Shown: one piece after another, positions 12,863-42,351 of the stretch | How the letters are laid out: each line of letters starts with the position of its first letter | Position numbering within the stretch: position 1 is the stretch's first letter | NCBI RefSeq assembly: GCF_017347085.1 | Contig: NZ_JADPSA010000029.1 | Coordinates: 1 to 64,000 of the forward strand | From: Nesterenkonia sp. E16_10 | GTDB lineage: Bacteria > Actinomycetota > Actinomycetes > Actinomycetales > Micrococcaceae | Length of the DNA stretch: 64,000 nucleotides | Direction of reading: 5' to 3' | Notes under the pieces: model-generated | Told to the model about the DNA's origin: nothing | The model's input: only the letters and a program-made list of their open reading frames with translations | Databases searched by the model: none | Position numbers and translations under genes: made by a program

Positions 12863-14293
12863 ATGAGTCCTGCAGTCAAGCCCGACCACCATGAGACCTC
12901 CCTCGACGATGCCCGCCGATTCGCCCGGGTGGATGAGGAAGGCCATGTCTACGCACTGGCCCCCGCAACCGGTCAGCCGGTGACCGCCGCCCCCGCCGTC
13001 CCGGAGGCTGGCGCGGCCGTGCCGGAGGCGGACGGAGCAGCGCCGGAGGCCGACGGAGCAGCGCCGGAGGCCGACGGAGCAGCGCCGGAGGCCGGACAGA
13101 CCGAGGCGTCCGCTGAGTCACCGGCCGCCGAGACCTACGTCGGACAGTTCTCCGGTGCCAGCGCGGACGAGGCGCTGCACTACTTCACCCGGAAGTTTGA
13201 CGAGCTCTACAACCGTGCGCTGCTGCTGCGGGCCCGCGCCGCGGCCGGAGCCGACTCCGCCAAGGCGCTGCATGAGTCCCTGGGACATATCCGCAAGGAG
13301 CTCACCGCGGGCACCTGGGTGGGCGACGTGGCGGCGCTGAGCGAGCTGCTGAAGGAGATCTCCACGGAGATCGATCAGCGCGCAGCCGTGGAGGCCCAGG
13401 AGGCCGAGGTCGTCCTCGCCGAGCACCTGGCGGTTCGTGAGCAGATCGTGGCCGAGGTGGAGCTGCTGGCGGATGCCGACCCGACCACACAGCATTGGAA
13501 GAGCGCCCAGGCGCGGATGAATGAGCTGTTCGAGGCCTGGAAGGCCGAGCAGAAGAAGCCCCCGCGGCTGACGAAGTCCCAGGAAGACCCCTACTGGAAG
13601 CGATTCCGCGCCGCGCGGAACCTCTTCGAGAAGAACCGGCGCGCCTTCTTCGCCACCAGGGACAAGGAGCACGGCGAGGTCAAGGCCGCCAAGGAGGCGC
13701 TGATCGCCGAGGCGGAGCAGCTCAAGGACTCCGATGACTACGGAGCGACCACCAAGGCCTACCACCGGCTGATGGACGACTGGAAGGCCCTGGGCCGCGG
13801 CGCCCGCAAGACCGACGACGCGCAGTGGGCCCGATTCCGTGCCGCGCAGGACGTGTTCTTCGGCAACCGGGACAAGGTCAACGCCGAGACCGACGCTGAG
13901 TACGCCGAGAACCTCACCGTGAAGCTGGCGCTCCTCGAGGAGTTCGAGACGCTGATGCCGATCGAGAACCCCGAGGCCATCCGGGAGAAGCACCAGGCGC
14001 TGCTCAACCGTTGGGACGCCGCCGGGCGTGTGCCCCGGGCCGATATGAAGTCCGTGGAGGGCCGGCTCAAGCGGGTCCAGGATGCGTTCCGCGACGCCGA
14101 GCAGACACACTGGCGCAAGACCGACCCCGAGACCCTCGCACGGCAGAACTCGATGCTCACCCAGCTCGACGAGGCTATTGCCGAACTTGAGGCGGCACTG
14201 GAAGCCGCCCAGGTCAGCGGGGACGACCAGCGGATTTCCGAAGCCAAAGAAGCATTGGACGCAAGAAGAAGCTGGCGAGATATGTTGAAGTAA
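12863..14293 (+). CDS. DUF349-repeat coiled-coil protein
   Basis: A 476-residue cytoplasmic protein of unknown function, conserved in actinomycetes. The C-terminal 380 residues are several DUF349 units: helical, charged repeats with the recurring pattern W-K-x-x-G-R (for example DDWKALGRGARK and LNRWDAAGRVPR) and FxxNRDK segments. The N-terminal ~80 residues are disordered and hold PEADGAA repeated three times at residues 54-74, from a 21-bp tandem DNA repeat. It has no membrane segment and no catalytic motif. Its position between hisS and mltG gives no firm clue to its job. Confidence 0.85.
   Translation: MSPAVKPDHHETSLDDARRFARVDEEGHVYALAPATGQPVTAAPAVPEAGAAVPEADGAAPEADGAAPEADGAAPEAGQTEASAESPAAETYVGQFSGASADEALHYFTRKFDELYNRALLLRARAAAGADSAKALHESLGHIRKELTAGTWVGDVAALSELLKEISTEIDQRAAVEAQEAEVVLAEHLAVREQIVAEVELLADADPTTQHWKSAQARMNELFEAWKAEQKKPPRLTKSQEDPYWKRFRAARNLFEKNRRAFFATRDKEHGEVKAAKEALIAEAEQLKDSDDYGATTKAYHRLMDDWKALGRGARKTDDAQWARFRAAQDVFFGNRDKVNAETDAEYAENLTVKLALLEEFETLMPIENPEAIREKHQALLNRWDAAGRVPRADMKSVEGRLKRVQDAFRDAEQTHWRKTDPETLARQNSMLTQLDEAIAELEAALEAAQVSGDDQRISEAKEALDARRSWRDMLK
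13022..13095 (+). repeat. 21-bp in-frame tandem repeat in the DUF349 gene
   Basis: Three 21-bp units start at 13022, 13043 and 13064 (the first differs by one base) plus a partial fourth. Each encodes PEADGAA. Near-identity at the DNA level indicates recent expansion. Confidence 0.9.
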
Positions 14294-14387: not shown

Positions 14388-16163
14388 GTGAGCGATCAAC
14401 AGCCGCATGAGTCGGGCTCCCCGCGCAGCCGCCGCGAGATTCGCGAGGACCGGGAGCGCGAATTCGGGGCGAAGCGTGAGCGTCAGAGCGCCTCGCAGGA
14501 GCGCGCGCTCGACGAGACGCTGCGCTCCGTGCGTGCCGGCTCCGCCGCCGCTGCGGCGCGGCGCGGGGAAGACCCCGCTGCGGGGCAGCGCGAGGAGGAT
14601 CCCGCTGTGGGTCAGCGCGAGGAGGACCCCGCTGTGGGTCAGCGCGAGGAGGATCCCGCTGTGGATCCCGGCGCGCCCCGGGTGCCGCTGCCGGCCATCG
14701 CGCCGATCCAGGCCACGGTGGTCTTCGACCAGACGGTCGCCTTCTACCGGGATGACCTCACCGAGGACGGCTGGGACCACACGGGACCCCAGCTGGCTGC
14801 TCCCTCCGCCGTGACCCCCTTCGATCAGGTGATGACCGGCTCCGATCAGGCGCTCTCCGGGCAGGAGGCGGAAGAGGAGTCCGAGTACGCCATGGCGGAG
14901 GAATCAGACTTCCTGCATGACGAAGACCTCGAAGACGACTACTACGAAGGCACCCGCATCGATCACGACGACGACGGCACCCCGCTGCTGATCTCCTCCT
15001 CCAGCCATGGCCGCGGCTACCAGACGGTCTCCGCCGTCGAAGGCGGTGCGACCCAGGCGGTGCTGGAGAAGCGCCGCCGTCGCCGCCGCCGGCGCAACCT
15101 CACGCTGAGCGTGGCCTTCGGGCTCTTCGCGGTGCTGCTCGTGGGCTTCGTGGTCGTGCTGCAGTCTCTGTTCGGCGGGGGCGGTCCCGAGGACTTCGAG
15201 ACCCAGGCCGGCGAGGTCGTGGACTTCACGGTTGAAGAGGGCGACGGCCCCGCCCTGGTGCGAAACCGACTGCTCGAAGCCGGGATCATCGCCAGTGAGG
15301 ACGCATTCGACGATGCCCTTGCGGAGCTCGAGGACGCACCCGAGCTCCAGCCGGGCGAGTTTCAGCTGCGTGAGCAGATGCCTGCCGAGGACGCGCTGGC
15401 AGTGATCTTCGAACAGGGCGAGGCGCTGCACTACATCTCGCTCCAGGACAACACCCGCATCGACGCGGCGCTGAGCTCCATCGCCGCGCAGACCGGCATC
15501 CCGGAGAGCGACATCCGGCAGGCCGCCGAGGACCCCGCGGCCTACGGGCTTCCCGAGGAGGCCGAGACGCTCGAGGGCTATCTGGCGGCCGGTGAATACC
15601 AGCCCAGCCTCGAGGCCACACCTGAAGAGATCCTGCAGACGCTGGTGGACACCACCTTCGAGCGGCTCGACGAGCTCGGCATCACCGAGGAGGACGAGCA
15701 GTGGCGCACCGTGATCGTGGCCTCGCTGCTCACCGCTGAGGGCCTGCCCGGCGACTACGAAGAGATCGCCGGGATCATCGAGAACCGGCTGGCCCCGAAC
15801 AACTCCGAGACCGACGGACTGCTGCAGATCGACGCCACCGTGATCTACGGCCTCGGCACGCAGAGCGTGCACTTCACCGAGGAGGAGCGGGCCGACGCCT
15901 CCAACGAGTACAACACCTACCAGAACCCAGGACTGCCCCCGGGGCCCGTGGCCGCGCCCAATATGGCGACCCTGGAAGCTGCCGCGAACCCGGATGAGAA
16001 CGACTACTTCTACTGGGTCACGGTGGACCTCGAGACCGGAGACACCGAGTTCGCCTCCACCTACGAGGAGCACCTCGGCTACGTGGAGGAGTTCAACGCG
16101 TACTGCGAGGACAACCCCGAGATCTGCGAAGGCGAGCCGACCCAGGAGAACGCGGGACCGTGA
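14388..16163 (+). CDS. mltG: Endolytic murein transglycosylase
   Basis: A membrane-anchored lytic transglycosylase (YceG family) thought to cut growing glycan strands and so set their length. One membrane helix lies at about residues 237-259, after an Arg stretch; the rest is extracellular. The catalytic Glu is E451 in LLTAEGLPGDY, and the family motifs DATVIYGLG and YNTYQNPGLPPGPV are intact. The cytoplasmic N-terminal 230 residues are long and acidic and contain a 9-residue repeat (residues 61-96). The GTG start has a ribosome site. Its stop overlaps the aroE start by four bases, the usual mltG-aroE pair. Confidence 0.95.
   Translation: MSDQQPHESGSPRSRREIREDREREFGAKRERQSASQERALDETLRSVRAGSAAAAARRGEDPAAGQREEDPAVGQREEDPAVGQREEDPAVDPGAPRVPLPAIAPIQATVVFDQTVAFYRDDLTEDGWDHTGPQLAAPSAVTPFDQVMTGSDQALSGQEAEEESEYAMAEESDFLHDEDLEDDYYEGTRIDHDDDGTPLLISSSSHGRGYQTVSAVEGGATQAVLEKRRRRRRRRNLTLSVAFGLFAVLLVGFVVVLQSLFGGGGPEDFETQAGEVVDFTVEEGDGPALVRNRLLEAGIIASEDAFDDALAELEDAPELQPGEFQLREQMPAEDALAVIFEQGEALHYISLQDNTRIDAALSSIAAQTGIPESDIRQAAEDPAAYGLPEEAETLEGYLAAGEYQPSLEATPEEILQTLVDTTFERLDELGITEEDEQWRTVIVASLLTAEGLPGDYEEIAGIIENRLAPNNSETDGLLQIDATVIYGLGTQSVHFTEEERADASNEYNTYQNPGLPPGPVAAPNMATLEAAANPDENDYFYWVTVDLETGDTEFASTYEEHLGYVEEFNAYCEDNPEICEGEPTQENAGP
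14568..14675 (+). repeat. 27-bp in-frame tandem repeat in mltG
   Basis: Four 27-bp units start at 14568, 14595, 14622 and 14649. Units 2 and 3 are almost identical in DNA and encode EDPAVGQRE; unit 1 has A for V and unit 4 diverges at its end. The repeat lies in the disordered cytoplasmic part of MltG. Confidence 0.9.
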
Positions 16164-34566: not shown

Positions 34567-35259
34567 TCAGGCGGCGGGTCCTGCTCCGGGGAGGCGGTGA
34601 CTCGAGGTCCCGCGCCAGCTCCGGTAGGCCCAGATGGTCATCGCCACCACCACCGACCAGGCCACACCGATCACCACGCCGTTGACGATGGTCTGATCCG
34701 CGATGAAGGCACCCAGCGCCACCAGAGCGACCTGTCCAGGCACCGTGGCGACCGCACTTGCCACGACGAAGTCACGCTGGGTCACACCGAAGGCGCCGCT
34801 GCCGTAGTTCACCGGCCAATAGGGGACACCCGGGGTCAGCCGCAGGGCGCAGACGGCCTCGAAGCCAGCACCCTCCAGATGCGCCTCGACCTTCTCCGCA
34901 TGGGACCCCAGCAGCTTACGCACCGCCTGGGTGCCCAGGAAGCGCGCCAGGTGGTATGCCGCGAAACAGCCGATGAGCACCCCGATCACCGAGAGCAGAC
35001 TGCCCAGCATGGTGCCGAAGATCAGCCCGCCGCTGACTGCCATGATGGTGACCGGGATCGGGGTCATGGCGACCGCCGCGTAGACGGCGATGAACACGAT
35101 CCACGCGGCCCAGCCGAAGTCCTCGATACGCTGCTGCAGCTCGTCCAGAGGCGGCAGCCGCAGATTGAAGGCGGCATAGATCATGCCGGCGAGCACTGCC
35201 ACCAGCAGCGCGTTGCGGATGAAGGAGCCCCAGGCGGGACCGAGGGCTTTTTCGCTCAT
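34567..35259 (-). CDS. TVP38/TMEM64-family (VTT domain) membrane protein
   Basis: A 230-residue polytopic membrane protein. The first helix is near residues 15-33; the VTT/SNARE-associated core follows with MTPIPVTIMAVSGGLIFG and the signature RLTPGVPYWPVNYGSGAFGV, then two C-terminal helices. Related DedA/VTT proteins are implicated in lipid scrambling or transport, but the substrate here is unknown. The ATG at 35259 follows a -10 box by seven bases. It is transcribed divergently from priA. Confidence 0.85.
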   Translation of the reverse strand: MSEKALGPAWGSFIRNALLVAVLAGMIYAAFNLRLPPLDELQQRIEDFGWAAWIVFIAVYAAVAMTPIPVTIMAVSGGLIFGTMLGSLLSVIGVLIGCFAAYHLARFLGTQAVRKLLGSHAEKVEAHLEGAGFEAVCALRLTPGVPYWPVNYGSGAFGVTQRDFVVASAVATVPGQVALVALGAFIADQTIVNGVVIGVAWSVVVAMTIWAYRSWRGTSSHRLPGAGPAA

Positions 35260-35306
35260 TGGCTCAACTCTACGCATCGGTGCGTGTCCCTGGTGGGAGA
35301 TACGAT
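35257..35306. promoter_or_regulatory. Divergent promoters of the VTT gene and priA
   Basis: On the minus strand TAGAGT (35272-35267) lies seven bases before the VTT ATG at 35259, a leaderless arrangement. On the plus strand TACGAT at 35301-35306 is a possible -10 box for priA, with a leader of about 33 nt and AGGGGG as ribosome site. Confidence 0.5.
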
Positions 35307-35345
35307 CGCAGGGCAGCGGTAATCAGGGCGAGGGGGTGGATCAGC

Positions 35346-37364
35346 GTGGCGCAGGAGCCGACATCGCAGGCGGGGCAACAGTCGAACCAGCCAGCCCTCT
35401 TGGACTCGCTCGCGCCCGCGCCTGCTCCGCAGCTGCCCGCCGGCGCCACCGATGAGCTTCCCGTGGCAGAGGTGCTGCTGGAGTCCGCCGTGCCCCACCT
35501 GGATCGCCCGTTCGACTACGTGGTGCCCGTCGATCTCGCCGAGAAGATCGTCCCCGGCTGCCGGGTGAAGCTGCGGTTCTCCGGTCGGGAGATGACCGGC
35601 TATGTGCTGCGCCGCAAACAGGAGCCCTCCACCGCCTCACGGCTCTCCCTGATCACCAAGCTCGTCACCGCCCTGCCGGTGCTCTCCGAGGACATCCTGG
35701 AGCTCGCCCAGCAGGTCGCCGAACGCGGGGCCGGGGTCACCGCTGATGTGCTGCGCGCCGCCATCCCGCCAAGGGCCGCCCGGGTGGAGAAGGACTACGC
35801 CGGCCTGCGCGCACCTGCGCCCGATCTCGACCCCGAGCACCCCCGTCCACGCAGCGCCGCGCTGGCGCTGAAGTCCTACGGCGAGCAGTCCTGGACGACC
35901 CAGGTGCTGGATCGGGTGCACGAGTGTCTGGCGGGGGAGGGCGACGCCGTCGTGGTGGTCCCGGACCAGCGCGACGTCGAAGCCCTGATGGAGGTGCTCA
36001 CCGGCACGCTGGGCAGCGGGGTCGCGGTCCAGCTGACCGCGGAGATGGGTCCCTCCGCGCGGTACCGGTCGTTCCTGGATCTGCGTTACGGACAGGCCCG
36101 AGTTGCTGTGGGCACCCGTTCCGCGGTCTTCGCCCCGGTGGCCCGGCTGCGGTTGCTCATGGTCTTCGAAGACGGCGAGCTGACCCACGCCGCGCCACGC
36201 GCGCCATATCACCATGTGCGTGAGGTGGCGCTGCTGAGGACGGTGCAGACCGGCGCTGAGCTGGTGATGCTCTCCACCTCGCGCAGCCTGGAGGTGCAGC
36301 GGCTGGTCGAGCGCGGCTGGCTCGCCGAGGCGGCGCCCGAGCGAGAGGAGCGCCGAACCGCGGCCCCGCGGATGATCGCCACCGCCGACTCCTACGAACA
36401 GGAGCGCGAGCCGGCCTTCCGCGCGGCCAGGCTGCCCGCAGCCGCATACAAGGCGGCGCGGGACGGGCTGGCGCAGGGGCCGGTGCTGATCCAGGTCGCA
36501 CGCAGCGGGTTCATCCCGGCGGTGCTCTGTGAGCGCTGCCGCAGCCGTCAGCAGTGCCCGCAGTGCCACGGACCACTGAGCCTGCCGGCTCATCACGGCC
36601 AGTCCCGGACGCTGAAGTGCCGATGGTGCGGGCTGCACCACCGGAACCACCGTTGTACCGAGTGCGGCTCCACCACCTTCCGTGCCGGCACGCGCGGGGC
36701 TGATCGCACCGCCCAGGAGCTCGGTCGCGCTTTCCCGAACACTCCGGTGATCTCCTCGACCTCGGATCACCCGATCGCCGAGGTCGGACAGGAGCCGGCC
36801 CTGGTGGTCAGCACCCCCGGAGTGGAGCCCGTCGCGCAGACCGGCTACGCCGCCGCGCTGCTGCTCGACGGGGACACCCAGCTCAGCCGTGAGGGCCTGG
36901 ACGTGCCTCGCCAGGTGCTCTCCCGGTGGTTCCGGGCGGCCTCGCTGGTCCGCCCGCACAAGACTCACGGCGGCACCGTGGTGATCACCGCCGAGGCCGA
37001 GGAGCTCACCGCAGCCCTCGTGCGCTGGGATCCGGTGGCCTATGCCCGCAGGGAGCTCTACAGCCGATTGGAGCTGGGACTGCCGCCGGCGCAGCGGATG
37101 CTCAGCCTCACCGGAGACCCGGCCGAGGTCGAGGCATTCCTCGCCCAGGTGCAGCTGCCCGAGGGCCGAGCGTGGATCGGGCCTGCGCCGCTGGATGATG
37201 GGCGGCACCGCTACCTGCTGTTCTTCGGCTACGCCGAGGCCGCCGCAGTGGTCACCGAGATCCGCCGGATCCGACGCACCCACAGCGCGGCACCCCCGGG
37301 AGCCGCACGCGGCAGCCGCGGTCTGCGGATCGCTATGGACGACATCGCGAGCCTGCAGTTCTGA
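35346..37364 (+). CDS. priA: Primosomal protein N' (PriA), helicase-motif-less actinobacterial form
   Basis: Related to the replication-restart helicase PriA. The N-terminal DNA-binding domain (LDRPFDYVVPVDL, GCRVKLRFSGREMTGYV) and the zinc-binding insert are kept; the latter has CERC, CPQC, CRWC and CTEC pairs around residues 397-445. The helicase core is degenerate: no Walker A GxxGxGKT is present where KSYGEQSWTTQVL aligns, and the DEEH box reads VFEDGEL. ATP-driven unwinding is therefore unlikely, a known feature of actinobacterial PriA. The GTG at 35346 gives 672 residues and has a nearby ribosome site; further upstream starts lack one. Confidence 0.9.
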   Translation: MAQEPTSQAGQQSNQPALLDSLAPAPAPQLPAGATDELPVAEVLLESAVPHLDRPFDYVVPVDLAEKIVPGCRVKLRFSGREMTGYVLRRKQEPSTASRLSLITKLVTALPVLSEDILELAQQVAERGAGVTADVLRAAIPPRAARVEKDYAGLRAPAPDLDPEHPRPRSAALALKSYGEQSWTTQVLDRVHECLAGEGDAVVVVPDQRDVEALMEVLTGTLGSGVAVQLTAEMGPSARYRSFLDLRYGQARVAVGTRSAVFAPVARLRLLMVFEDGELTHAAPRAPYHHVREVALLRTVQTGAELVMLSTSRSLEVQRLVERGWLAEAAPEREERRTAAPRMIATADSYEQEREPAFRAARLPAAAYKAARDGLAQGPVLIQVARSGFIPAVLCERCRSRQQCPQCHGPLSLPAHHGQSRTLKCRWCGLHHRNHRCTECGSTTFRAGTRGADRTAQELGRAFPNTPVISSTSDHPIAEVGQEPALVVSTPGVEPVAQTGYAAALLLDGDTQLSREGLDVPRQVLSRWFRAASLVRPHKTHGGTVVITAEAEELTAALVRWDPVAYARRELYSRLELGLPPAQRMLSLTGDPAEVEAFLAQVQLPEGRAWIGPAPLDDGRHRYLLFFGYAEAAAVVTEIRRIRRTHSAAPPGAARGSRGLRIAMDDIASLQF

Positions 37365-37410
37365 TCCCGCAGTTCTGGTCCCGCGGTTCTGAACCAACGG
37401 TTCTGGTCCC
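37355..37410 (+). repeat. Four tandem 14-bp repeats at the priA 3' end
   Basis: Units start at 37355, 37369, 37383 and 37397 and follow GC(A/G)GTTCTG(A/G)TCCC. Units 1, 2 and 4 are close copies and unit 3 differs at its end. The priA stop codon (37362-37364) is inside the first unit. Unit 3 can form a small GGTTC/GAACC hairpin. The repeats fill the gap between two convergent genes. Confidence 0.85.
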
Positions 37411-37436
37411 GCGGATCAGGGGCGCCGCGAGGGTGC

Positions 37437-38573
37437 TCAGTCCAAGCTGGAGATGAAACGGCGCAGCGCCCGGGCCGCCTGCGCCGGCTTCTCGTAGTGC
37501 AGCAGATGCCCGGTCTCGCACAGCACCTCGGTGTGCGCTCCTGGAATCATTCGGCGCAGACGCTGCTGCCCGGCCGGGGTGCTCAACTGATCCTTTGACC
37601 CCGGCGCCAGCAGAACCGGCAGCTCCAGCCGGTCGGCGAACTCGGTGACGGTGTGCCGGCTGGAGGCCCAATAGGCCTGCAACAGGGTCTTCGGGTCCGC
37701 GTAGCCGCTGAAATGCTGTCGGTGCTGATCCCGGATATAGGCCACCTGATTCGGATCGCGGGTGACGATCATCGAGGCGTTGGTGACCGCCTGCGCCAGC
37801 GGAGACCGCAGCAGCGCCTGCGCCACAGGCTCGGGCAGCCACTGGCTTGCTCGGTAGTACAGGTCCACAGCGGCCGCACCGGGGAGCAGGCTGCCGGTGA
37901 AGATGTCATTGCTGATCGGGGCGAACAGCGCCAGCCCCGCCCAGCGCCGAGGTTCCTCTGAGCGGTCTGCTGGGCTGGTCTGCGCGGCGTGGGCCGCTGG
38001 GTTGGTCTGCGCGGCGTGGGCCGCTGGGTTGGTCTGCGCGGCGTGGGCCGCTGGGTTGGTCTGCGCGGCGTGGGCCGCGACGATGATCGAGCCGAAGGAG
38101 TGACCCACCAGGACATCCGCTGCTCCCAGCTCGAGGGCCTCCGCCAGCGCCTCCACGAAGCCCGCATAGGCGTCCAGGGTGTGCTCGGCGGGGACCCGCT
38201 CGCCGGGGACGGCGTCGGCTGGGTCCGCAGCGGCGCGCTGCAGCGGCGGGGTCGCCCCGAAGCCGGGGAGATCCGGAACGAAGACCTCGAACTCCGGCAG
38301 TGCATCCACGATCAGCGCCATCCCGTGATGGTCCCCGCGGAAGCCGTGGATCAGCAGCAGCCGGCGCGGCGGAGCCTGCGAGGCGGCGGAGGCACCGGGG
38401 GTCGGCGCCTGGGCGGGGTAGTGCCAGACCGCAGCCGCCGTGCCCAGCCGGGCGTCGTCGTCGACGACGGTCTCGCGTCCCGGGCCGCTCACGGGCTTCG
38501 GGGCGGCGAAGTCCACCGGGACGTCTCGTCTGATTCCTGCCCGAACTGGGTGCTCGGTCCACGTCTGGCTCAC
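37437..38573 (-). CDS. Alpha/beta-hydrolase fold protein with internal repeat
   Basis: A 378-residue hydrolase of unknown substrate. The oxyanion segment HGFRGDHHG is near residue 76, the nucleophile elbow is GHSFGS with S159, an Asp is in LAPGSKDQLS and the catalytic His in CETGHLLHY. Right after the elbow, inside the helix that carries the nucleophile, HAAQTNPAA is repeated four times (residues 168-203). The N-terminus has a ~70-residue extension. The GTG start lies six bases after TAGGCT. It is divergent from leuS. Confidence 0.88.
   Translation of the reverse strand: MSQTWTEHPVRAGIRRDVPVDFAAPKPVSGPGRETVVDDDARLGTAAAVWHYPAQAPTPGASAASQAPPRRLLLIHGFRGDHHGMALIVDALPEFEVFVPDLPGFGATPPLQRAAADPADAVPGERVPAEHTLDAYAGFVEALAEALELGAADVLVGHSFGSIIVAAHAAQTNPAAHAAQTNPAAHAAQTNPAAHAAQTSPADRSEEPRRWAGLALFAPISNDIFTGSLLPGAAAVDLYYRASQWLPEPVAQALLRSPLAQAVTNASMIVTRDPNQVAYIRDQHRQHFSGYADPKTLLQAYWASSRHTVTEFADRLELPVLLAPGSKDQLSTPAGQQRLRRMIPGAHTEVLCETGHLLHYEKPAQAARALRRFISSLD
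37965..38072 (-). repeat. 27-bp in-frame tandem repeat in the hydrolase gene
   Basis: Four units, read on the minus strand from 38072, 38045, 38018 and 37991. The first three are essentially identical and encode HAAQTNPAA; the last reads HAAQTSPAD. The flat DNA identity points to recent slippage or recombination. Confidence 0.92.
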
Positions 38574-38650: not shown

Positions 38651-41206
38651 GTGAGCCACGCGAGCGAAACCGCTGCAGCCGATACCACTGCGACGCAGCC
38701 CAGCAGCCCTTCGGCTGACGCCCAGGGCGGCGAGAAGAAGCAGTACTCCTTCCAGGAGATGGAGGCCCGCTGGCAGCCGGTCTGGGAGGAACAGGGCACC
38801 TTCGTGGTGGACCCGGCGGACACCCGGGAGAAGAAGTACGTGCTGGACATGTTCCCGTACCCCTCCGGTGACCTGCACATGGGCCACGCCGAGGCCTTCG
38901 CCATCGGCGACATCCCCGCCCGGTACGCCCGGCTGCGCGGCTACAACGTGCTGCACCCGATCGGCTGGGACTCCTTCGGGCTGCCGGCCGAGAACGCCGC
39001 GATCAAGAACGACGCTCACCCCGCGGACTGGACCTACGCCAACATCGAGACCCAGGCGGCGTCCTTCAAGCGCTACGGGATCAGCACCGACTGGACCCGC
39101 CGGCTGCACACCTCGGACGAGTCCTACTACCGGTGGACCCAGTGGCTGTTCCTGCAGTTCTACAACAAGGGACTGGCGTATAAGAAGGACTCCCCGGTCA
39201 ACTGGTGCCCGAAGGACCAGACCGTGCTCGCCAACGAGCAGGTCGTCGAGGGCGCCTGCGAACGCTGCGGGACCGCGGTGATCAAGAAGTCGCTGAACCA
39301 GTGGTACTTCAAGATCACCGACTACGCCGACCGGCTCCTGGAAGACATGGACGAGCTCAAGGGCCACTGGCCCGACCGGGTGCTCTCCATGCAGCGCAAC
39401 TGGATCGGCCGCTCCACCGGCGCCTCGGTGCGCTACCAGATCCCCGCCACGCAGGGCGCGCCCGAGCACCCCCCGGTGGAGGTCTTCACCACCCGCCCCG
39501 ACACCCTCTACGGGGTCACCTTCATGGTGGTCGCCGCCGACGCCGACCTGGCGATGGACCTGGTCACCGAGGAGCAGCGCGCCGAGCTTGAGGCTTACCG
39601 GGCCGCGCTGGGCAGCGTCTCCGACATCGAGCGCCAGTCCGCCGAGCGGGAACGCACCGGGGTCTTCCTGGGCCGCCACGCGATCCACCCGATCACCGGC
39701 GAAGAGCTGCCGCTGTGGGCCTCGGACTATGTGCTCGCCGACTACGGCACCGGCGCCGTGATGGGCGTGCCCGCCCACGACCAGCGCGACCTGGAGTTCG
39801 CCCGCACCATGGGGCTGAAGGTCCGCGTGGTGGTCGACACCGGTGAGGAAGACCCGGCTGAGACCGGCACCGCGACCGCCGGCGAGGGCACCGCGATCAA
39901 CTCCCCGGCCTGGGACGGGCTGAGCAAGGACGCCGCGATCGCGCGTGCCATCGAGGTGCTCGCCGAGCAGACCGTGGGCGAAGCCAAGGTCAACTACCGG
40001 CTGCGCGACTGGCTGCTCTCCCGGCAGCGCTTCTGGGGCGCGCCGATCCCGATCATCCACTGCACCGACTGCGGCGAGGTCCCGGTGCCCGAGGACCAGC
40101 TCCCGGTGAAGCTGCCCACCGGCATGCGCGGCGAGCAGCTCGCGCCGAAGGGGAAGTCCCCGCTGGCCGGCGCCACCGACTGGGTCAACGTGGACTGTCC
40201 CTCCTGCGGCGGCGCCGCCACCCGCGACACCGACACCATGGACACCTTCGTGGACTCCTCCTGGTACTACCTGCGCTATATCGACCCGAACAACGACGCC
40301 GAGATCTTCCCCAGCGCGGAGATCAACAAGTGGCTGCCGGTGGATCAGTACGTGGGCGGCGTGGAGCACGCCATCCTGCACCTGCTCTACTCCCGGTTCT
40401 TCACCAAGGTGCTCTTCGACCTGGGCCTGGTGAACTTCACGGAGCCGTTCAAGGCGCTGCTGAACCAGGGTCAGGTGCTCAACGGCGGCAAGGCCATGTC
40501 TAAGTCCCTGGGCAACGGGGTGAACCTCGGCGAGCAGCTCGACATCTACGGCGTCGACGCGGTCCGGCTGACCATGGTCTTCGCCTCCCCGCCGGAGGAT
40601 GACGTGGACTGGGCCGACGTCTCGCCCTCGGGCTCCGCGAAGTTCCTGGCCCGTGCCTGGCGCTTCGCCCAGGACGTCAGCTCCGAGGCCGGCGTCGACC
40701 CATCCCACGGGGCCAAGGCGCTGCGTGTGGTCACCCATCGGACCATCCAGGACGCCGCCCAGCTGGTGGAGGACAAGAAGTTCAACGTGGTGATCGCTCG
40801 CACCATGGAGCTGGTGAACGCGGCCCGCAAGGAGATCGACTCCGGTGCCGGCGCGGGTGATCCTGCGGTGCGTGAGGCCGCCGAGGTCACCGCGCAGATC
40901 CTCTCCCTGGTCGCGCCCTACACCGCCGAGGACATGTGGGCCCTGCTCGGCCACCAGCCCTCGGTGGCGAACTCCGCCTGGCCCGCAGTGGATGAATCTC
41001 TGCTGGTCCAGGACACCGTCACCGCGGTGGTCCAGGTCAAGGGGAAGCTGCGCGACAAGCTGGAGGTCGCCGCAGACATCACCGAGGCCGAACTCGAGGC
41101 CCAGGCGCTGGCGCTGCCAAGGATCCAGAAGTACGTCGCCGAGGGCGGCGGGGTGCGCAAGGTGATCGTGCGTGCGCCCAAGCTGGTCAACGTCGTGACG
41201 GGCTGA
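38651..41206 (+). CDS. leuS: Leucyl-tRNA synthetase
   Basis: Class I synthetase, 851 residues. The HIGH motif is HMGH in [15 protein letters not shown]; the second signature reads AMSKS in [12 protein letters not shown] instead of KMSKS, although a lysine precedes it. The CP1 editing domain holds [16 protein letters not shown], and the catalytic WYYLRY and anticodon domains follow. The GTG start has a weak ribosome site. An Ala/Thr/Gln lead of about 30 residues precedes the domain. Its TGA shares one base with the ATG of the DegV gene. Confidence 0.96.
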
Positions 41207-42207
41207 TGAGCCCCCGGCCAGCAGAACGCTGCCAGCAGAGCCTGGCCCGATGGCGCAGCGCGCTTGAGGCCGACCTGCTGGCTCGGCGGGCTGCGATGCC
41301 GGGGCGTAAACCCCATCTGCGCCGCAAGAAGGGGCGCATCGCGGTGGTCACCGACTCCTCCTGCTCGCTTCCTGTAGATCGCGGGCCCCAGGAGCTGCTG
41401 CTGGGCCCGGTCGGGGTCAACATCACCTCGGTGCCGATCCCGGTGATGATCGGGGATCAGATCTATCCGGAGACCAGTCACGAGCTGGACCGGGATCTGC
41501 CCCTGGCGCTGGCTCAGGGGAACCCGGTGCGCACGTCTCGACCGTCCCCGGGACGGTTGCTGGAGTCCTACGAGTCGCTGCGGGCCCAGGGCTACGCCGG
41601 GGTGGTGTCCATCCACCTCTCGGCGAAGCTCTCCGGCACCGTGGAGGCCGCCCGGCTGGCCGCCGAAGGGCTGGACTTTCCGGTCATGGTGGTCGATTCC
41701 CGTCAGGCCGGCCTGGGTCTGGGGCACAGCGTGATCGACGCGGCGATCACCGCGCAGCTCGGCGGATCCCTGGCGGCGGTCGCGGAGTCCGCGACGCGCA
41801 GCGCCCACGCCGCAGAGACGATGTTCGTGCTGCCCAACCTGGACCAGCTGCGCCGCGGGGGACGGATCAACGCGATGTCCACGCTGATCGGTGGACTGCT
41901 CTGGGTCAAGCCGCTGCTGCAGCTGACCGAGGGTGAGATCCAGCCCATGGAGCGTCCGCGCACCATGCCGCGCGCCCTGGAACGACTTCAGGCCCGGGTG
42001 GCGCAGCACGCCCACAGCATGGACGCGCCCCGCCTGGGAGTGCATGGATTCGGTAATCCTGCCCAGGCGCTGGAGCTGGCCGAGACGCTGGCCCCGCTCT
42101 CCGCGGCCCCGGTGCCGGTGGTGGACCTTCCCCCCGCCCTGGGCGCTCACCTGGGCCTGGGAGCGCTGGCGGTGTCGTTGAACCCGGCCCTGCCCGCCAC
42201 TTCCTGA
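41206..42207 (+). CDS. DegV-family fatty-acid-binding protein
   Basis: DegV/FakB proteins bind a fatty acid and, in FakAB systems, present it to a kinase. The family core starts near residue 43 with IAVVTDSSCSLP. Other signatures are RTSRPSPGRLLESYESL, IHLSAKLSGTVEAARLAA and LDQLRRGGRIN. The 42 residues before the core are basic and not conserved, so the true start could be internal, but the one-base overlap with leuS favours 41206. No fakA gene is adjacent. The stop codon lies at the junction of a 26-bp tandem duplication. Confidence 0.88.
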   Translation: MSPRPAERCQQSLARWRSALEADLLARRAAMPGRKPHLRRKKGRIAVVTDSSCSLPVDRGPQELLLGPVGVNITSVPIPVMIGDQIYPETSHELDRDLPLALAQGNPVRTSRPSPGRLLESYESLRAQGYAGVVSIHLSAKLSGTVEAARLAAEGLDFPVMVVDSRQAGLGLGHSVIDAAITAQLGGSLAAVAESATRSAHAAETMFVLPNLDQLRRGGRINAMSTLIGGLLWVKPLLQLTEGEIQPMERPRTMPRALERLQARVAQHAHSMDAPRLGVHGFGNPAQALELAETLAPLSAAPVPVVDLPPALGAHLGLGALAVSLNPALPATS

Positions 42208-42231
42208 ACCCGGCCCTGCCAGCCGCTTCCT
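42180..42231 (+). repeat. 26-bp tandem duplication across the DegV stop codon
   Basis: Units 42180-42205 and 42206-42231 both begin GAACCCGGCCCTGCC and end CTTCCT; they differ at a few central bases. The TGA at 42205-42207 spans the junction, so the second copy is untranslated. Confidence 0.85.
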
Positions 42232-42351
42232 GAGGCTGCCCACCGAGTTCTCCGGCTCGGACCGGTCTTCCCCAGCCCCGCACTGAGGACGACGCCGCGG
42301 CCCGCTGCGCACAGCGGATGCTGCACCGCGGATCCGAGTCGATCACGGTCC

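Follow-up and report, generated by a model that had tools for sequence, protein, structure and literature searches.

The window, by which we mean the whole analysed stretch of 64,000 nucleotides from Nesterenkonia sp. E16_10, contains on its minus strand a gene for an alpha/beta hydrolase that carries a short tandem repeat within its coding sequence (Table 1). The protein belongs to the alpha/beta hydrolase superfamily by its Pfam profile match (Abhydrolase_1, PF00561; E 1.6e-19, 71 bits against a curated cut-off of 25.8) and by the order of its active-site motifs. The G-x-S-x-G nucleophile elbow reads GHSFG at residues 157–161, and Ser159, Asp328, and His356, which follow each other in the Ser-Asp-His order, are invariant in 54/54 aligned sequences. 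These three residues probably form the catalytic triad, the Asp and His being assigned by position. The alignment comprises the window protein and 53 of 57 named loci, which come from Nesterenkonia (one record is named Garicola koreensis), Brevibacterium, Rothia, and a handful of others. A search of NCBIfam for a substrate gave 12 hits, none of which reaches its own cut-off, and comparison with the sequences of solved structures gave weak matches, the best at E 1.3e-7.

The hydrolase gene is flanked by a convergent priA-like gene, whose best NCBIfam match is primosomal protein N' (E 4e-180, 600.5 bits; model cut-off 980), and by a divergent leuS. In a blastn comparison of the genus loci L001–L030, leuS adjoins the hydrolase gene in 30/30 and priA in 28/30; one of the two loci with no priA match (L023) starts at a contig end. 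Between E16_10 and N. aurantiaca, DNA identity is 84% for the hydrolase gene (including the loop that holds the repeat), 96% for leuS, and 95% for priA. The hydrolase is thus less conserved than the genes on either side of it, yet dN/dS, calculated with the loop left out, is 0.36 for the pair with N. aurantiaca and 0.22–0.29 in five other pairs. Other reading frames are also open across the repeat, and a different gene in one of them was considered, but the evidence favours the minus-strand hydrolase frame. That frame is backed by the Pfam match (the family search was of this frame), by orthologues in all 30 genus genomes, and by dN/dS values below 0.4.

Table 1. Features of the hydrolase locus (positions in the window)
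Feature	Position	Strand	Basis or remark
alpha/beta hydrolase gene, 378 aa, GTG start per ORF tool	37437..38573	-	Pfam match
Nucleophile elbow GHSFGS plus next residue, residues 157–163	38085..38105	-	Alignment; modelled strand 154–158, helix 160–172
Repeat unit 1, HAAQTNPAA, residues 168–176	38046..38072	-	HAAQT ends the modelled nucleophile helix
Repeat unit 2, HAAQTNPAA, residues 177–185	38019..38045	-	Identical to unit 1
Repeat unit 3, HAAQTNPAA, residues 186–194	37992..38018	-	Identical to unit 1
Repeat unit 4, HAAQTSPAD, residues 195–203	37965..37991	-	3/27 bases differ from units 1–3
priA-like primosomal protein gene, convergent neighbour	35259..37364	+	NCBIfam match below cut-off
leuS, divergent neighbour	38651..41206	+	TIGR00396 above cut-off

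The repeat consists of four head-to-tail units of 27 bp on the minus strand (37965–38072), which encode residues 168–203 of the hydrolase. Tandem Repeats Finder places it at 37969–38078 (27 bp × 4.1 copies, 98% matches, no indels) and gives it a score of 213, the highest of 33 rows for the window. The two intervals describe one array, the former being cut in the protein phase. The first-pass annotation, made from sequence alone, had proposed four copies of HAAQTNPAA with nearly identical DNA behind the nucleophile of the hydrolase. The repeat is real: when three mismatches or fewer are allowed, the unit occurs exactly four times in the window, each time in the array, and not once in 100 dinucleotide-preserving shuffles. 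The near identity of the copies is also borne out, since units 1–3 are identical at the DNA level and the fourth differs only at the three bases given in Table 1. The peptide has to be amended in the last unit (HAAQTSPAD), and the array, which does lie downstream of GHSFGS, is separated from it by the five residues IIVAA.

The 110-bp array has one exact match in its own genome. A dispersed copy was not found there: of the 20 rows, the one that follows the exact match (E 5.7e-4; 72% identity across positions 4–109 of the hydrolase array) belongs to a different array, whose 28-bp unit has only a GC-rich core in common with it. This second array (L169 1541–1625, contig C1; 28 bp × 3.0, 96%) shares the core GCGGCGTGGGCCG; its period is not divisible by three, yet two frames of more than 500 codons are open there.

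The number of units differs between species. A protein search of 30 genus genomes, E16_10 included, gave a hydrolase match in 30/30, and the loop could be read in 28; in L019 it is a run of N, and L030, from a 62%-complete genome, is matched in pieces and has no row. Arrays of the HAAQ type are present in five of the 28 readable genomes, with four copies in E16_10, three in LB17, two in N. aurantiaca, two in G019, and a decayed pair (~2) in N. sandarakina. The suggestion that array length changes in steps of nine residues thus holds between species, and the hydrolase frame is open through the array in 5/5 array-bearing species. No HAAQ-type array is present in the other 23 readable genus genomes, and 22 of the 28 have no array of any kind as judged by eye. 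One genome, G012 (L006), has an unrelated 12-bp array encoding GPVT at the same loop position. In the N. massiliensis NP1 record (L050 5391–5500), 37 N follow GHSFGT and are themselves followed by a second copy of the preceding sequence; this looks like a scaffolding overlap, and it breaks the gene in the record.

A tree of leuS and priA DNA from 13 of the 30 genus genomes groups the five array bearers together (96/97), pairs E16_10 with N. aurantiaca (100/100), and places G012 with three repeat-free genomes (97/96). Only these inner groups are used, because no branch sets the outgroup pair apart from the other genomes and one of its rows is only 38% filled; among the five array bearers, the pairing of E16_10 with N. 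aurantiaca is the only order that the tree resolves. This nearest relative has two copies against the four of E16_10, at a dS of 0.17 outside the loop.

Comparison of the units themselves indicates how the array may have turned over. Units differ on average at 2.58 of 27 bases within species (12 pairs) and at 5.29 between species (66 pairs); with 13 related, non-independent units, this comparison is descriptive and carries no significance test. In G019 and in N. sandarakina, the pair of copies differs at 7/27 bases, which exceeds many between-species pairs. Variants are shared within arrays: an AGA codon is common to copies 1 and 2 of LB17, whose unit reads HAAQRNPAA, and occurs in none of the other units, and a synonymous GCT is common to both copies of G019. 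Unit 1 of E16_10 and unit 1 of N. aurantiaca agree letter for letter. The divergent copy is the last one in both E16_10 and LB17, and in the three arrays of two copies, differences from the E16_10 unit number 0, 2, and 4 for the first copy and 2, 8, and 9 for the second. Such sharing of variants, together with divergent last copies, would be expected if units were duplicated locally time after time while the edge of the array eroded. As to the source of the unit, repeat-free relatives have similar sequence at the end of the nucleophile helix (HAAQ- or HAAR- in L012, L016, and L018; HTAQNP in N. massiliensis), and therefore the 27-bp unit most likely arose by duplication of native sequence.

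The coding strand of the array (37969–38078, minus strand) has one identical five-pair hairpin, GCGGC-CCAC-GCCGC, per unit. Its folding z is -3.73, measured against shuffles in which the periodicity is lost as well, and the other strand, at -1.12, is unremarkable. The stem, which lies at the unit junction, is perfect in three array-bearing species out of five, LB17 and G019 having a single mismatch each; the window contains stems of this kind at ~0.06 per 27 bases. Hairpin-driven slippage is a possibility, and one that expansion could dispense with.

In the alignment, the array lies between G161 and P219 (numbering of the E16_10 protein). The spacing from G161 to P219 is 57 residues in E16_10, 22 in 38 of the 54 sequences, 21 in four, and 25–48 in the other 11 (27 in the repeat-free L034, L035, and L036), so that the idea of one copy's worth of sequence as the normal state is roughly right. 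Other spacings are nearly constant over the 54 sequences: P219–H284 is 61–65 residues, H284–D328 is 43 in all, and D328–H356 is 27–32. The loop behind the nucleophile helix is not unique in its variability, because the G104–H158 loop, which precedes the nucleophile, also varies (37 to 68 residues). In N. aurantiaca, this other loop contains a second array, of the 15-bp unit QGPSKQGPGKQG (L031 5389–5437); Tandem Repeats Finder reports no 15-bp array of this type in the window gene.

The AlphaFold2 model of the E16_10 hydrolase (pTM 0.89) has a strand at 154–158, the nucleophile helix at 160–172 (13 residues), and the next strand at 213–217, with short helices at 174–180 and 183–187 in the array. 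For the orthologue from N. haasae, which lacks the repeat, the model (pTM 0.92) puts the corresponding helix at 124–135 (12 residues) and the next strand at 142–146. The nucleophile helix is therefore predicted to keep its length, and the remaining residues would be added after the first Asn-Pro, just before which the modelled helix stops. Block-mean pLDDT is 97 for residues 161–170, then 67, 53, 52, and 66 across 171–210, and again 97 for 211–220; these are predictions, and low values are not proof of disorder. In the model, the extra copies are thus a low-confidence segment between the nucleophile helix and the next strand. According to PMC7034887, the nucleophile of the alpha/beta hydrolase fold occupies a sharp turn where strand beta 5 ends. 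From there the helix leads back, and therefore the added residues are expected, from topology, near the sheet edge opposite to the nucleophile.

The predicted fold is otherwise ordinary, and haloperoxidase and esterase structures head the list of structural matches (Z 28–29). For example, chloroperoxidase F (1a8s) aligns with Z 29.0 and rmsd 2.4 over 261 residues, the Pseudomonas fluorescens esterase 1va4 with Z 28.8 and rmsd 2.3 over 261 residues, and the Thermogutta esterase 4uhd with Z 28.1 and rmsd 2.6 over 269 residues. With haloperoxidase- and aryl-esterase-like enzymes the hydrolase shares the fold over most of the chain, the nucleophile elbow, and the column order of the triad, whereas its sequence identity to the three structures is 19–23%. 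The predicted placing of the extra residues has a parallel in another alpha/beta hydrolase, C2orf69, with an unstructured stretch that PMC11878206 describes as lying opposite the catalytic pocket.

The array is very probably an in-frame coding minisatellite that changes in size by slippage in an indel-tolerant loop, and it is ordinary in kind. Its units are near-identical and head to tail, their period is divisible by three, and their number varies between related genomes of five species. In the mechanism we propose, a small Nesterenkonia clade would descend from an ancestor in which HAAQ-type sequence, comprising the last part of the nucleophile helix and the turn behind it, became doubled as a unit of 27 bp. 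Units would then be gained and lost by slippage during replication or by unequal exchange among the copies, and single-base changes would erode the copies, the last one most. The enzyme would tolerate the extra residues because they extend the loop that joins the nucleophile helix (alpha C) to the following strand, past the helix end that faces away from the active serine, and selection would mainly preserve the reading frame and the remainder of the enzyme. What the data show is the array, the series of copy numbers among species, the position of the array in the predicted model, and the conservation of the triad columns; we infer that slippage drives the changes, which way they went, and that catalysis is unaffected. 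For a loop that would tolerate differences in length, we count the GPVT array at this place in G012 and the 21–57 range of spacing over the 54 sequences.

Alternative explanations give the array an effect on the enzyme or deny that it exists as recorded. It had been proposed that the array lies within the helix that positions the nucleophile, and that copy number sets the length of this active-site helix in nine-residue steps, thus tuning activity. The array does lie directly behind the helix, and unit 1 supplies its last residues, but HAAQT of unit 1 is the only part of the array in the helix, the other units lying past its end away from Ser159, where any growth would also take place. The copies do not lengthen the modelled helix beyond the difference of one residue given above. 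Each unit, moreover, has a proline, in Asn-Pro or in Ser-Pro, and prolines often break helices, so that we regard this proposal as very improbable. It is just as hard to believe that the copies were created or miscounted by an assembly or scaffolding artefact. The E16_10 genome is in 51 contigs, and N. massiliensis has an apparent artefact of this sort at the same place, where a run of N lies between overlapping copies. Nevertheless, clean arrays of like units occur in two or three copies in three other genomes and in decayed form in a fourth, species differ in the sequence of the unit, and from end to end the array spans just 110 bp.

Selection for the loop itself deserves more weight, yet it too is unlikely. 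According to this explanation, HAAQTNPAA serves as a spacer or as a string of short helices for partner binding, oligomerising, or salt adaptation, with a copy number tuned by selection. The same unit peptide is found in three copies of E16_10 and in both copies of N. aurantiaca, the latter differing at two bases that are both synonymous, which is a hint of selection on the HAAQTNPAA peptide; the modelled short helices and the spacing of 27 rather than 22 residues in the three repeat-free loci also speak for it. Against this, the peptide is altered in LB17 and still more in the last copies, it has decayed in N. sandarakina, and G012, with its GPVT repeats, lacks the HAAQ unit. The copies are modelled with low confidence, and recent duplication suffices for the three identical copies of E16_10. 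A combined version, which we consider somewhat less probable still, takes the loop as a slippage hotspot that selection keeps as a length-adjustable spacer, in which HAAQTNPAA and GPVT expanded independently in neighbouring lineages. Two unlike units have expanded at one loop, and therefore its length may tune properties of the enzyme; if the spacer explanation is true, these may be stability, partner binding, or slow enzyme motions.

As an in-frame coding minisatellite, the array resembles the intragenic in-frame tandem repeats of the VNTR type known from bacteria (review PMC3899988), which likewise consist of near-identical head-to-tail coding units and differ in number between related genomes. 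The review gives slippage and recombination as the two motors of intragenic repeats. What sets the hydrolase array apart from the repeats described there is that it lies centrally within a compact enzyme domain. A phase-variable contingency locus was considered and rejected: the array lies inside the open frame, and a unit of 27 bp, a multiple of three, cannot switch that frame, so that no phase variation would result. No report of a HAAQTNPAA array appears in the titles or abstract openings among the open-licence literature matches listed.

The species compared here provide a natural series of one enzyme with no, decayed, two, two, three, and four copies. The series would show how a minisatellite can start from native helix-end sequence and lengthen within the compact domain of an enzyme whose catalytic residues do not change. 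If loop length affects the enzyme, the series is a ready-made test set; if it has no effect, it is a plain example of insertion tolerance in an alpha/beta hydrolase.

In a local background of 20 stretches of 20 kb (400 kb of the same contig, the window partly included; non-overlapping arrays), 102 arrays score at least 50, 21 at least 100, and one, the hydrolase array, at least 200. The period is divisible by three in 81 of the 102. Equal samples from G019, G011, and G024 gave 96, 61, and 68 arrays, of which 7, 5, and 9 score at least 100 and 0, 0, and 1 at least 200. There are thus more arrays in the E16_10 sample than in those of three relatives, which is only suggestive because the samples are not orthologous regions.

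Two other strong arrays in the window are each found close to the N-terminal end of an ORF. The first, which again has a 27-bp unit, comprises about four copies (GQREEDPAV; 14548–14664) near the start of ORF 14388–16163, the product of which looks like an MltG-type protein. The other is a 21-bp array with EADGAAP repeats (13001–13094, 98% matches) in the N-terminal part of ORF 12863–14293. Closer to the hydrolase gene, 14-bp and 28-bp repeats of the GTTCTG type occupy 37355–37414; they overlap the end of the priA-like gene and continue past it, stopping short of the convergent hydrolase gene. At 42179–42233, a 26-bp unit occurs twice and spans the stop codon of the DegV-family ORF 41206–42207.
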